Below are positions 3,152 to 21,788 of a stretch of DNA of 34,342 bases, one piece after another. Source of the stretch: Nitrospirota bacterium (GTDB taxonomy: Bacteria > Nitrospirota > UBA9217); contig JAOUEV010000037.1 of the NCBI GenBank assembly GCA_029858565.1, positions 1 to 34,342 of the forward strand, written 5' to 3'. Every line of letters begins with the position of its first letter. Position 1 is the first letter of the stretch. The translations under genes were made by a program, and so were the position numbers. The notes under the pieces were generated by a model. It worked only from the letters and a program-made list of their open reading frames with translations. It searched no databases and was not told the origin of the DNA.

Positions 3152-4462
3152 TTATAACCCTCGCTCATCCAGCAGCTTCTTCTTCCGCTTCTCGAATTCC
3201 CGCTCGCTGATCTCGCCTTTGAGCTTCTGATCCGTCAACGCCCGCAGTTGTATTCTCAAATCATCGGCATCGGACGCTGTGCTTCCCGTGACCGCAGAGA
3301 CAAGTTCGATGCGCTTCTTGAGATTATCGATCTTCCGCAGCAGTGCCGCCTCGCTTTTGATTTCCGAGAGTGCGAGCTTCATCGGCGCGTTTCCGTACCA
3401 GTGAGTGTAATCCGGATTCTGGTGAAAGGCGCCCTTGAATGCGATCAGGGCGTAGAACTGCTTCAGCTTGAAGAAACTACTCTCGACTGACGAGAGGTTT
3501 TCGTACAGCATATGGGGTCCGATGACGAAGGTCGCGCCGAAGAGGGGATGCGGCGGACGGTCGGAAGGCGCAGGAACTAGCAGGCCGTCCCTGTGCAGTC
3601 CCTCGACGATCGCCAGTGCCTCGGCAACGATTTTTTCGCTCTGCTCCGCGACGCCGTCCGCGTCAGCCAGGCTCCGCGCCGCGAACTCCCGGGTATGGCA
3701 TTTGCTGCAGAGGGCGATCATCCGGTCCCGCTCCTGCTTCCGCAGAGCCGAGGTCGCTGACAGGCCCGTGGCGATTCCCCGGCTTACGTTGTGCGAACCG
3801 CCTTCCATGTGGCAGTCGACGCAGGAAGGTCCGGATTTCCCGCCGGACTGCTTGTACAGTACGCCGTGTTGCGACGTTTCCCACGCCTCCAGCTGCGGGT
3901 GGTCCGGGCCCATGTGGCAGACGCCGCAGGTGCCGGGGTTCCGGGCAGTTGCCTGGTCCGTTCCGTGCTTGGTATGGCAGGTATCGCAGGAGGTCTCCAC
4001 GCGATGGCAGGAACCGCATCCCTGGCGCTGCATCTCCGGCGTTTGGGCAAGGAACATCGCGCATTCGGTTTTCACGAGCGGGGCCGCGGACCCGTCCTTG
4101 TGGCAGAAGGCGCAGCTCTTGTCCCGCTCCGCGCCCGGAGGCAGGTTCCGGGTGCACGCCTGGCCGGACTTCAGGCCGACGGCATGCTTGCTCAGGCGGT
4201 GGCTTGCCAAGGCGTCCTTGTGGCAGGAGCCGCAGACCTCGGCAGTTACCGGTCTTTTCCGTCCGTGGCTCGCTTCCACGTTTCCGCCGTGGCAGTCAGC
4301 GCATGCCACGTTCTTCCGGAAATGGACGCTTTCTTTCCAGTAGGCCACGATGCCGGGTGTTTTCCGCTCATGGCAGGAGAGGCAGGGATCGTCGGCCTGG
4401 GCAGGCGCGGCGGCGCAGACCGGGATGAGCAGGGACAACAGGGCGATACGCGTGAGCTTCAT
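3152..4462 (-). CDS. HAO-like multiheme cytochrome c with C-terminal SHOCT-like segment
   Basis: The protein has 436 residues and a signal peptide ending near AQA (21-23), so it is periplasmic or exported. Nine CxxCH haem sites begin at residues 27, 54, 77, 117, 149, 159, 179, 214 and 252. The run CHMGPDHPQLEAWETSQHG (about 182-200) and the later YTHWYGNAPMKLALSEIK are hallmarks of the hydroxylamine oxidoreductase family, whose canonical members carry eight haems; the count here is one more. The last 40 residues (IQLRALTDQKLKGEISEREF onward) look like a SHOCT domain, unusual on a cytochrome. Its ATG overlaps the stop of the propeller gene (4459-4462). Substrate is unknown: hydroxylamine, nitrite or plain electron transfer are all possible. 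Confidence 0.85.
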   Translation of the reverse strand: MKLTRIALLSLLIPVCAAAPAQADDPCLSCHERKTPGIVAYWKESVHFRKNVACADCHGGNVEASHGRKRPVTAEVCGSCHKDALASHRLSKHAVGLKSGQACTRNLPPGAERDKSCAFCHKDGSAAPLVKTECAMFLAQTPEMQRQGCGSCHRVETSCDTCHTKHGTDQATARNPGTCGVCHMGPDHPQLEAWETSQHGVLYKQSGGKSGPSCVDCHMEGGSHNVSRGIATGLSATSALRKQERDRMIALCSKCHTREFAARSLADADGVAEQSEKIVAEALAIVEGLHRDGLLVPAPSDRPPHPLFGATFVIGPHMLYENLSSVESSFFKLKQFYALIAFKGAFHQNPDYTHWYGNAPMKLALSEIKSEAALLRKIDNLKKRIELVSAVTGSTASDADDLRIQLRALTDQKLKGEISEREFEKRKKKLLDERGL

Positions 4463-5694
4463 GGATGTTCCTCCGTTTCCCGCAGCAGACCGGCGCGCCG
4501 GTCATCATACTCCTGCCGGGAGATCAGTTCTTCCGCAAGAAGGTTTTGGAGTCGTGCCAGTTTTGACGCAAGCACGCGGTCCAAAGGACGGTCTGCGCCG
4601 GAAAATGACGGAGTGAAATTCCTGAAGAGCAGAAGCCGGCCGTCCGTTGCCACCGCGAGCCGGGTCCCGTCAGGAGACCAGGAGCCGATGCTGCGCGGGG
4701 AATGCGAAAGCAGGGGCTCCCCTCCCGATCCATCGGTCCTGACGAGCGATCCGCCCAAGTAGATGATGCTTCCCCGGGGATTCCAGGAAGGGTACAGGCC
4801 GGCGGGAGCGGCGACCGGCGTCGCATCGTCATTTCGCAGGGTCTGGAGTTCGAGCCTGCCGTTCCCATCCGCCAGGGCAACGCGCGTTCCGTCAGGAGAC
4901 CAGCCTGCGGAAGCATACAGGGTTTCGCGCCCGCTTCCCGGGATGTCGACTGCGGTCCCGGTCAGCGTGTCAATGCGGGTCACCCGGGAATAGGCAGGCA
5001 CGACCGGCGGTTTCAGATGCTCCATGACGAGGAACGACCCATCGAGCGGATTGACGCCTGCGTGCCGCCAGGCAAGGAGCAATTCTCCGTCCGGGTCTTT
5101 CCAGGGGTAGATCTTGCTGAACGTGGAGAGAGTTTTCGCTCTTCCTGTCGCGACGGCATACCGCGAGATCTGGCGGGAGATCTCGGACCCGATGCGGGTT
5201 GCGCTTATGCGGGCCGATACCAGGATCAGGCTGTCCGCATCTAAGGAATAGAGCATGTCCGCCTGCCGGTCGAGGGGCAGCCGAGTCGCACTGAGCCGGT
5301 CCGGATCGACGGCGAATAATGCTGTCTTGTCAGCCTCCCGGGAGAGCGCATACAGCGTGTTGTTTTCCGACCAGGCCAGGGAAGAAGCGCGCGGGATGTC
5401 CGTTTGTTTCTGTTCAAGCGAGTCCGTGTCCACGATGGTCACGGTCTTGCTGATGAACGCGAGACGTTTGCTGTCAGGCGACCAGGCCAGGGCGCCGGGA
5501 CCAGCGGGCACGCCTTTTGCGATCCTCACCGGATGGTAGAACGACGCTGCTGCGGTCAGGGGATCATGCCGGAGGGGGACACAGGCAGGAACGAACAATA
5601 AGAGCGATAGGGCGAGGAACATTCCCGGCGACGGCACAATAATCGTAAAACAGCGGGATCGGCAAATACGCGGGGTGCTGTTCGGAAATTTCAT
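4459..5694 (-). CDS. Beta-propeller (TolB/WD40-like) lipoprotein with C-terminal SHOCT-like segment
   Basis: With the start at ATG 5694 the protein has 411 residues; the frame is open much further upstream, but that part is antisense to nadB. The ATG overlaps the nadB stop (ATGA, 5691-5694) and has AAGAAG just upstream. A hydrophobic stretch ends in the lipobox-like VPAC, predicting a lipoprotein. Repeated W-S-P-D-G-T/S-K/R-L/V-A-like blades (AWSPDSKRLAF, GWSPDGTRVAL, SWNPRGS, SWSPDGTRLAV) indicate a six- to eight-blade propeller. The end (LASKLARLQNLLAEELISRQ, then EYDDRR) matches the SHOCT-like tail of the downstream cytochrome. A scaffold or partner for that cytochrome is inferred from coupling and the shared tail. 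Confidence 0.75.
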   Translation of the reverse strand: MKFPNSTPRICRSRCFTIIVPSPGMFLALSLLLFVPACVPLRHDPLTAAASFYHPVRIAKGVPAGPGALAWSPDSKRLAFISKTVTIVDTDSLEQKQTDIPRASSLAWSENNTLYALSREADKTALFAVDPDRLSATRLPLDRQADMLYSLDADSLILVSARISATRIGSEISRQISRYAVATGRAKTLSTFSKIYPWKDPDGELLLAWRHAGVNPLDGSFLVMEHLKPPVVPAYSRVTRIDTLTGTAVDIPGSGRETLYASAGWSPDGTRVALADGNGRLELQTLRNDDATPVAAPAGLYPSWNPRGSIIYLGGSLVRTDGSGGEPLLSHSPRSIGSWSPDGTRLAVATDGRLLLFRNFTPSFSGADRPLDRVLASKLARLQNLLAEELISRQEYDDRRAGLLRETEEHP

Positions 5695-19186: not shown

Positions 19187-19209
19187 GAAGTCAACGATAG
19201 GTGTTTTTT

Positions 19210-20505
19210 ATGGCAAAGAATAAGAAATATGAAAAAATGAAAAAAGACATTCCCCTTGTTGCAGAGGAAGAAGCCGTGTACCTTGCACGGGTTGATGGCT
19301 CGCTGCAGGATGTAAAGCTGCGACCTAAACTTATCGACTTGTTCGCAGGTGCAGGGGGGATGACGCTTGGCTTCACAAAGTTTACCGGACACGGATATAT
19401 ACCTGTGTGGGCGAATGATTTTAATGATTATGCCGCACGTACCTATAATGCAAATTTCGGGGAGCATTGTAGGGTCGGTGATATCGTCGATATCCTCGAA
19501 AATCCGAAAACCAAAATCCCTAAAGCTGATGTTGTGATCGGAGGCCCTCCCTGTCAGGGATTTAGTTTGCTCAACAGAAATCGCGATAACGATCCAAGGA
19601 AGCAGCTTTGGCGGCCGTATATGGACATCGTAGAGCGCTCCGGAGCGTCCGTTTTCGTCATGGAGAACGTACCTCAGCTGCTCGATTCCTTTGAGCATGG
19701 TGAAATTATCGGTGTAGCTGAGGCAATGGGATTTAAATTGAGATGGGCGAAACTATGCGCAGCCGATTACGGTGTTCCTCAAGTAAGGTGGCGTGCTTTT
19801 ATCGTAGGATGTAAATTTGCCGATCCTGCCGGCGTTTTTCCTCCTAGAAAAACAAACTTCAACGTCAATAACGGCCACCGTAGGGCTTTTAACGAAGAAT
19901 TCGATGAATACATTACGAATCCATCGCCATGGAAAACGGTTCGTGATGCTATTGGTGATTTACCGCCGCCAATTGGGACAGACATACGCAATGAGAACCC
20001 GCCGTTAGATTTGCATTTCGGGCGGACACCGACGGGAATGAGTATGAAACGCTACCGGTCAATACCGAAAGAAGGTATGAACCGATTCGATCTTCAAAAA
20101 CGAGCACCGGAATTGACTCCGGCTTGCTGGATTCGTAAAACATCTGGAGGAACCGATTTGTTCGGAAGGTTATGGTGGGGTAGACCTTCGGTAACGATAC
20201 GAACGGAATTTTTCAAGCCGGAGAAGGGGCGCTATCTGCACCCTGAGCAGCATCGCCCGATTACACACAGAGAGGCGGCGAGATTACAGTCTTTCCCGGA
20301 CGATTTTCAGTTTGTCGGGACAAAGACGGAAATAGCAAAGCAGATTGGAAATGCGGTACCGCCGGTTTTAGCAGCTCGTATTGCAGATTGCGTTTACACG
20401 TTGTTGCTGTCGAAGGAAGTCAATAAATGCCGGATGTCTTCAGCAGGAAGAAAAGAAGCTGGATTATGGCGCGAATTTCAGGCTGCAACACAAAACCTGA
20501 AATGA
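19210..20505 (+). CDS. C5-cytosine DNA methyltransferase
   Basis: From ATG 19210 (AGGTG upstream; a GTG at 19201 is in frame) the protein has 431 residues. It shows the ordered C5-methyltransferase motifs: I LIDLFAGAGGMTLGF, IV GGPPCQGFS with catalytic Cys115, VI VFVMENVP, VIII VRWRAFIVG, IX REAARLQSFPD and X AKQIGNAVPP. The stretch between VIII and IX holds the target-recognition region. It methylates cytosine and protects against the partner nuclease; the overlapping vsr gene repairs T:G mismatches that arise when 5-methylcytosine deaminates. The region is AT-richer than flanking genes, which suggests horizontal arrival. Target sequence is unknown. Confidence 0.95.
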   Translation: MAKNKKYEKMKKDIPLVAEEEAVYLARVDGSLQDVKLRPKLIDLFAGAGGMTLGFTKFTGHGYIPVWANDFNDYAARTYNANFGEHCRVGDIVDILENPKTKIPKADVVIGGPPCQGFSLLNRNRDNDPRKQLWRPYMDIVERSGASVFVMENVPQLLDSFEHGEIIGVAEAMGFKLRWAKLCAADYGVPQVRWRAFIVGCKFADPAGVFPPRKTNFNVNNGHRRAFNEEFDEYITNPSPWKTVRDAIGDLPPPIGTDIRNENPPLDLHFGRTPTGMSMKRYRSIPKEGMNRFDLQKRAPELTPACWIRKTSGGTDLFGRLWWGRPSVTIRTEFFKPEKGRYLHPEQHRPITHREAARLQSFPDDFQFVGTKTEIAKQIGNAVPPVLAARIADCVYTLLLSKEVNKCRMSSAGRKEAGLWREFQAATQNLK

Positions 20506-20849: not shown

Positions 20850-21788
20850 TTGCCAAGACGACCGAGTGAAACAAAGCCGGAAACGATACGTGTACAACTT
20901 ATCGAGCTTCTTGCACACTTTGAGGATCAGCTCAGGAAGGGTGATCTTCGGAGAAAAGTACTGTCACTGATTTCCGCTTTTCATCTTCTGCGTGATCTTG
21001 GAAGTTCTTTGATTCCCCGCGAAGAGGCTTCTGCAGCCCGAGATAGAATCCTCGCCTATTTCCGTAAATATCCCTTGTTGGTAATTCATGGAGATGAGTT
21101 GATGGTGGTCTCGGGTATTCAGGATTGGCCAAGGAGGATAAGAGAACTGAGGCGGGAGTATGGTTGGGCAATTGCATCAGGTGTCACGGTCCAAGAGATG
21201 ATCGCGGAGGATGAAATCAACGTAAAAGGGCTGGTTGAAGCATCGTTAAAGCCTGAGGAATATATATTGCTCGATAAAGAACAAGATCGCGAAGCGGCGC
21301 ATCGATGGAAAATTGCCAACGATATTCGCAAAAAGTCAGGCGGTGTGCATGCAAAGATTCTTGAGTTTTTACGCAGCAACGTCGGGAGACCTGTAACGGG
21401 AGAGGAACTTCGGTATGTAACAAATGACAAGAGCGAGTGGGCACGTCGTGTGCGTGAATTGAGAACAGAACAAGGCTGGCCGATTCTCACGCGTAACACT
21501 GGCCGGCCGGACTTGCCCATAGGTTCCTACTTACTTGAGAAAGATAGACAAAGTCCTGCACATGATAGAAAGATTCCCGATCCTGTTCGGCGAGCAGTGC
21601 TCGTTAAAGACAAATATACATGTCAGAAATGCCGCTGGACTCACGAGCAGTGGAACCCTTCTGATCCACGGCATCTTGAACTCCACCACAAAGAACACCA
21701 CGCGAAGGGTGGCGAGAACACGAAAGAGAACTTGATCACATTGTGCGTGGTTTGTCATGACGCAGTTCATCGTAAGGACAAATCATAA
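20850..21788 (+). CDS. HNH restriction endonuclease with two tandem winged-helix repeats
   Basis: Translation appears to start at TTG 20850, three bases after the vsr stop, with GGAG seven bases upstream; 312 residues. Two homologous winged-helix units lie in tandem: one ending DWPRRIRELRREYGWAI (about residues 91-107) and one ending EWARRVRELRTEQGWPI (about 196-212). The C-terminal HNH domain has CQKC, LELHHKEHHAKGGENTKENL and LCVVCHDAVH, i.e. the beta-beta-alpha metal site with a four-Cys zinc frame. With a C5 methyltransferase and vsr directly upstream it is most simply the restriction partner. The winged helices may read the target. The protein is not one I can tie to a named enzyme. Confidence 0.82.
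   Translation: MPRRPSETKPETIRVQLIELLAHFEDQLRKGDLRRKVLSLISAFHLLRDLGSSLIPREEASAARDRILAYFRKYPLLVIHGDELMVVSGIQDWPRRIRELRREYGWAIASGVTVQEMIAEDEINVKGLVEASLKPEEYILLDKEQDREAAHRWKIANDIRKKSGGVHAKILEFLRSNVGRPVTGEELRYVTNDKSEWARRVRELRTEQGWPILTRNTGRPDLPIGSYLLEKDRQSPAHDRKIPDPVRRAVLVKDKYTCQKCRWTHEQWNPSDPRHLELHHKEHHAKGGENTKENLITLCVVCHDAVHRKDKS

Follow-up and report, generated by a model that had tools for sequence, protein, structure and literature searches.

An HAO-family cytochrome with nine haem sites and its beta-propeller partner share SHOCT-like C-terminal tails in a conserved gene pair

An HAO-family cytochrome with nine predicted haem sites and an exported beta-propeller protein, each ending in a SHOCT-like hairpin, are encoded by overlapping genes in a Nitrospirota bacterium, and the two genes, with both tails, are found side by side in two phyla, Nitrospirota and Desulfobacterota. 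The two genes form a conserved module for which functional linkage is strong, and the persistence of the tailed pair suggests that the tails join the cytochrome and the propeller into a previously undescribed nitrogen-oxide-handling complex. New within the HAO family are the nine-haem branch, the SHOCT-like tail and the propeller partner.

The gene pair and its distribution

The pair lies on the reverse strand of the window, by which we mean the whole stretch of 34,342 nucleotides that was analysed (contig JAOUEV010000037.1):

3152-4462, minus strand: gene of the nonahaem HAO-family (PF13447) cytochrome, 436 amino acids, signal peptide at residues 1-23
4459-5694, minus strand: gene of the exported beta-propeller protein (PD40/WD40-like), 411 amino acids, upstream partner of the cytochrome gene
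4459-4462, minus strand: ATGA shared by the propeller stop and the cytochrome start, an overlap of four bases
5691-5694, minus strand: ATGA shared by the nadB stop and the propeller start, an overlap of the same type as at 4459-4462

The gene upstream of the propeller gene, nadB, encodes L-aspartate oxidase. A first reading made from the letters alone (the sequence-only reading) had described two coupled genes for exported proteins, and the ATGA overlap and the export of both products confirm this description.

Nitrospirota were sampled by an even draw of 396 genomes, in which the cytochrome was counted at an E-value of at most 1e-70. It is present in 12 of these genomes, and the same 12 encode the propeller, each time adjacent on the same contig. 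The 12 genomes span eight families and the distribution is therefore patchy; the pair is missing from the one other genome of the same genus as the window and from the further members of that family covered by the search. A scan of species representatives gave five Nitrospirota contigs with a tailed cytochrome and the propeller directly upstream (L031, L032, L033, L034 and L035) and one in which the pair is truncated at the contig end (L040), and a further pair (L002) was found in a search of relatives. Moreover, in three Desulfobacterota contigs (L037, L038 and L039) a propeller lipoprotein with a SHOCT-like tail, at an identity of only 18-21%, overlaps or abuts the cytochrome, and in a fourth (L036) the contig edge leaves only the final 49 codons of a propeller of this kind beside the cytochrome. 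The sequence-only reading depended on the pair being conserved beyond this one genome, and it is conserved, in all 12 of the sampled Nitrospirota genomes that have the cytochrome and at four Desulfobacterota loci. The question that it had raised, whether the tails always co-occur, can be answered with yes for every pair whose two gene ends are readable. A fragment in a UBA6905 contig (L048, 5001-5279), consisting of the last 93 cytochrome codons directly after unrelated sequence, was not counted; it is either a gene remnant or an assembly join.

A nine-haem branch of the HAO family

The cytochrome scores 89.7 bits against PF13447 (cut-off 21.9), which places it in the HAO family, and all 11 of its 11 orthologues match the same model. 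Profile matches in the PDB are HAO-family proteins, with E-values of 4e-48 to 3e-39 and with Asp267/His268 kept. All the sequence tests that characterise the family in general thus agree on the membership of the cytochrome. Hydrazine dehydrogenase was rejected as a more specific identity (NF052343; 99.7 bits against an equivalog threshold of at least 900 bits). Structure prediction with AlphaFold2 (without haems, 11 sequences) gave a poor body with a pLDDT of 59.9 and a weak haem core, and HAO proteins are the only significant fold matches of this poor model, on which no structural argument is built here.

For residue mapping, a profile of the 11 orthologues was aligned to HAO of N. europaea (NeHAO; 4fas). 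The following sites are used below:

4061-4156, minus strand: insertion between HAO haems 3 and 4, with invariant Cys103, CAFCH and invariant Cys134
4100-4114, minus strand: ninth haem site CAFCH, residues 117-121, fourth in order, no HAO counterpart
4004-4018, minus strand: CGSCH, residues 149-153; C149-H153 aligns with NeHAO C229-H233, haem 4 (Cys229/Cys232)
3899-3904, minus strand: Asp187-His188, equivalent of NeHAO Asp267-His268, invariant in 11 sequences
3392-3406, minus strand: motif THWYG, residues 353-357, where HAO has its cross-linking Tyr

The window cytochrome has nine CxxCH motifs, which start at residues 27, 54, 77, 117, 149, 159, 179, 214 and 252. All eight HAO haem sites align in HAO order, including haem 4, and one site is extra. 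The count of nine rather than eight haem sites given by the sequence-only reading was therefore borne out, with the additional one located in the insertion between HAO haems 3 and 4. This CxxCH is a predicted haem site that would hold a ninth haem. The insertion is missing from an eight-haem sister family and from a paralogue (L042) described below; its two invariant non-haem cysteines, Cys103 and Cys134, perhaps form a disulphide. We take NeHAO C229-H233 to be the catalytic P460 haem 4 and D267-H268 to be the active-site pair, and on this mapping the window protein keeps both the haem-4 site and the Asp-His pair, with an extra haem site between haems 3 and 4. Within THWYG, His354 aligns with NeHAO Tyr467 and Tyr356 with the Tyr of the TYGN motif of kustc1061, in an alignment that is ambiguous by one to two residues; both His354 and Tyr356 (WYGN) are invariant among the orthologues.

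Compared with HAO itself (N. europaea 4fas; kustc1061 HOX 4n4j), the eight haem sites, the haem-4 position, Asp267/His268 and the C-terminal helices are alike, whereas the window cytochrome has the ninth-haem insertion, a shorter N-terminus, a SHOCT tail, an uncertain or absent cross-link Tyr and a propeller partner. Nine haems in an HAO/NrfA-like architecture are also found in OcwA of Thermincola, which acts on nitrite and hydroxylamine (PMC6703420). However, the OcwA haem that is absent from HAO is haem 2 (PMC6703420), whereas it is the fourth in order here, and OcwA was not among the matches of the cytochrome in the PDB sequence searches.

The propeller protein and its lipid anchor

Profile matches identify PD40/WD40 repeats in the partner protein, and its AlphaFold2 model (12 sequences; pLDDT 81.7, pTM 0.80) has a confident propeller of the WD40 type followed by a C-terminal two-helix hairpin. 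PD40 repeats and the fold are shared with TolB/PD40 propellers, from which the protein differs by the SHOCT tail and by failing the TolB model (TIGR02800; 16.5 bits against an equivalog cut-off of 343), so that TolB was rejected as its identity. The Foldseek matches were unspecific WD40 propellers, for the most part beta subunits of G proteins with a TM of about 0.5-0.6, and are uninformative for function. One propeller match in another genome (L061; G229:C61:43260-44393) has an in-frame TAA near its N-terminal end, so either the start is misplaced or the gene is broken.

The possible anchor of the window protein is a weak one:

5581-5592, minus strand: weak lipobox VPAC, residues 35-38 (Cys38), not conserved

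The lipobox is canonical in L037-L039, plausible in L002, G313, G359, G371 and the window, and missing from at least four propellers of Nitrospirota (L032, L035, L040 and L042). The sequence-only reading had let the propeller dock the cytochrome at a membrane by its lipid. This part of the proposal holds up weakly: a clear or plausible lipobox is present in about half of the propellers, but the anchor is not conserved. Judged from the lipobox, docking by a lipid is possible only where the propeller carries this motif.

SHOCT-like tails on both proteins

Both AlphaFold2 models end in a two-helix hairpin as in SHOCT, and both tails are confidently modelled, that of the cytochrome with a pLDDT of 87-94 for the block and about 77 for the last residues:

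3170-3250, minus strand: SHOCT-like hairpin at the cytochrome C-terminus, residues 405-431 (helices in the model at 399-414 and 420-433)
4483-4563, minus strand: SHOCT-like hairpin at the propeller C-terminus, residues 378-404 (helices in the model at 373-387 and 393-409)

Searched in isolation against SHOCT (PF09851; cut-off 27), the window tails of the cytochrome and the propeller reach 23.5 bits (E 4.5e-5) and 20.2 bits (E 4.7e-4), respectively. Across the whole 3.9-Mb genome the two best SHOCT matches are the tails of these adjacent genes, and the third has an E-value of 0.29. The cytochrome orthologues in genomes G359 and G371 exceed the cut-off with 31.9 and 32.1 bits, which speaks for a real SHOCT assignment in the cytochrome family; the best propeller tail reaches 25.8 bits and none is over the cut-off. 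BLASTP of the cytochrome against the propeller did not align the tails, and pairwise similarity alone could therefore not prove their likeness. A profile of the cytochrome tails matches a profile of the propeller tails with an E-value of 2e-5, at an HH-suite probability of only 52%. Furthermore, alignment scores of tails within a pair have a mean of 40 against 23 (sd 5) for shuffled tails, and conservation in the cytochrome is 0.54 in the tail columns against 0.34 in the preceding linker. Genome ranking, profile match, shuffled-tail scores and orthologue scores all indicate a SHOCT likeness above chance. The claim of the sequence-only reading that both tails are SHOCT-like is thereby supported, with the window tails just below the cut-off of the HMM search and cytochrome orthologues above it. 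The gas vesicle protein GvpG was considered as a name for the cytochrome tail, as it scores better than SHOCT in the window (28.6 bits, cut-off 30.6), and was rejected: of the 11 orthologues, 8 match SHOCT but only 5 match GvpG, and the GvpG matches have weaker E-values. The tail charge shows a suggestive change of sign between the phyla, but charge complementarity within pairs is not significant (Spearman -0.51, p 0.053; p 0.47 for Nitrospirota alone).

Three groups of relatives point to a tail that tracks the partner and not the fold. Genome G361, which also contains L034, has a second propeller-cytochrome pair (L042/L067; L042:3607-6035) in which both tails were kept although the cytochrome no longer has the insert with the ninth haem site, the WYGN motif or the His of Asp-His; this second pair may have a role in electron transfer or a structural one. 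In G092 and G235, which belong to one genus and so to one lineage, the propellers have no cytochrome partner and end before the tail. The sister HAO-like cytochromes have eight haems and are tail-less, among them the one of the window genome itself (G000:C14:38590-39828; L025, L080:5124-6413; motif NPDYMHWYGWAPMK). Repeat arrays of CRISPR-like appearance were noticed upstream of the tail-less propeller of G092 (L076:213-2491; translation GVGKQSPLKYN / LGLENNRRSST).

With the SHOCT proteins (PF09851) the tails share the short C-terminal helical hairpin, and the cytochrome orthologues share it above the Pfam cut-off. The paper that defined SHOCT mentions neither cytochromes nor propellers nor adjacent genes and has no paired tails on neighbours (PMC3581485). 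SHOCT on a multihaem cytochrome, a nonahaem HAO or a pair of this kind was not described in the literature searched, which lay mostly outside the subscription journals.

Nitrogen-oxide context

In all four Desulfobacterota loci (L036-L039) the cytochrome gene is followed by a YgbA_NO gene (PF11756; 67-73 bits, cut-off 25), whose family is associated with regulons for NO stress. Moreover, L037-L039 have a ferredoxin gene before the propeller gene, with a conserved terminator between the two, and downstream of the terminator, 48 bp before the propeller start, a dyad (TTGATTTTTGTCAA, TTGACTTTTATCAA, TTGATTTATGTCAT) of the pattern TTGAY-N4-RTCAA, with one mismatch in L039, whose sequence resembles FNR and delta-proteobacterial HcpR sites:

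L037:3735-3906: terminator, then FNR/HcpR-like dyad
L038:3608-3825: terminator, then FNR/HcpR-like dyad
L039:3687-3822: terminator, then FNR/HcpR-like dyad

Both hcp and frdX, a ferredoxin-like gene, are under the control of HcpR (PMC1274295), and we infer that the ferredoxin gene of L037-L039 is frdX. Close before the window pair there is no HcpR-like site, and the window genome has no YgbA_NO; the Desulfobacterota context is therefore not simply transferable to the window pair. The window genome encodes an NrfA-like protein, two Hcp proteins and a further Hcp fragment. The Nitrospirota neighbourhoods of the pair vary, with no constant third gene. An NrfA-like (PF02335) match in the window genome (G000:C6:13202-14662) contains one in-frame TAA and is a possible pseudogene or split gene.

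Among solved structures the best match of the cytochrome is Kustc0457/Kustc0458 of Kuenenia stuttgartiensis (PDB 6h5l, E 3.8e-48), an HAO-family octahaem protein with a separate partner protein. This reductive HAO-like complex is implicated in the reduction of nitrite to NO (PMC6423088); it differs from the window pair in its dihaem cytochrome partner, its eight haems and the lack of SHOCT tails in the match. Because 6h5l is the best structural relative, and because of the Desulfobacterota gene context, a reductive reading is favoured, and the cytochrome probably works on NO, nitrite or hydroxylamine in this direction.

Proposed mechanism and alternatives

We propose that the cytochrome and the propeller act as a conserved two-protein module in the cell envelope, in which a periplasmic HAO-family enzyme, probably a reductase of NO, nitrite or hydroxylamine, would be held to the propeller by heterotypic SHOCT hairpins; we consider the chances of this reading to be about even. 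The exported WD40-type propeller would be the docking or scaffold subunit, lipid-anchored in some species, and the hairpins, each on a variable linker, would pair across the two proteins. The module may serve in defence against nitrosative stress or take part in reactions on the side of nitrite ammonification. A more general idea, that SHOCT is a heterotypic pairing tag by which divergent hairpins on unrelated folds bind each other and nothing else, is put forward tentatively and with some doubt. A pull-down of such a cytochrome with such a propeller was not found in the literature.

That SHOCT domains are oligomerisation modules, as the sequence-only reading took for granted, is not established: the one published test, by size exclusion, gave no support for self-oligomerisation of one SHOCT domain, which may bind something else (PMC3581485). 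This negative outcome speaks against homotypic pairing but has no bearing on a heterotypic one. It thus counts against an assembly in which each tail strengthens the oligomer of its own protein, for example a cytochrome trimer that may lack the Tyr-haem cross-link, and in which the two proteins cooperate without tail-tail contact. HAO-family enzymes are trimers or multiples thereof (PMC12758564) and the cytochrome tail directly follows the C-terminal HAO helices, as such an assembly would have it; yet the tail tracks the partner, and neither the sister cytochromes nor the unpartnered propellers have one, so that we regard homotypic assembly as unlikely. The paper that defined SHOCT proposed that the domain binds other proteins or serves as a short C-terminal tag (PMC3581485), which would fit two tails that bind a common third component, such as a membrane protein, a maturation or sorting factor or peptidoglycan, instead of each other. 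However, the window genome has no other convincing SHOCT protein, a general sorting tag would be expected on more exported proteins, and the Nitrospirota surroundings offer no constant third gene; we find little probability in a common third component either. Heterotypic pairing of the two tails is kept as the preferred reading, being the most economical one.

With regard to the chemistry, the cytochrome might instead be an oxidative enzyme in which a Tyr cross-links haem 4, hydroxylamine or hydrazine is oxidised and the propeller is a docking platform. In oxidative HAOs a Tyr is cross-linked to haem 4, and in reductive ones His or another residue stands at this place (PMC12758564). The invariant Tyr356 of WYGN, which aligns with the TYGN Tyr of kustc1061, speaks for oxidation, but in the NeHAO alignment His354 takes the place of Tyr467, as in the reductive state (PMC12758564), and the operon context in Desulfobacterota is one of nitrosative stress. 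We consider an oxidative enzyme quite improbable and keep to the reductive one.

If the idea of a heterotypic pairing tag is true, the pair stands for a new class of HAO-family complex, a nonahaem enzyme on a propeller scaffold, and a function of SHOCT would be demonstrated for the first time. SHOCT is widespread, and a pair that keeps both tails despite decay of the enzyme is a clean test system for the joining of different proteins. The HAO family, which is central to the nitrogen cycle, gains in Nitrospirota and Desulfobacterota a branch that has nine haem sites and a partner other than a cytochrome, and that could handle NO, nitrite or hydroxylamine.

Elsewhere in the window, an ORF resembling a cytosine DNA methyltransferase (19201-20505) is followed by an HNH-like ORF (20850-21788), and the two are probably a restriction-modification unit.
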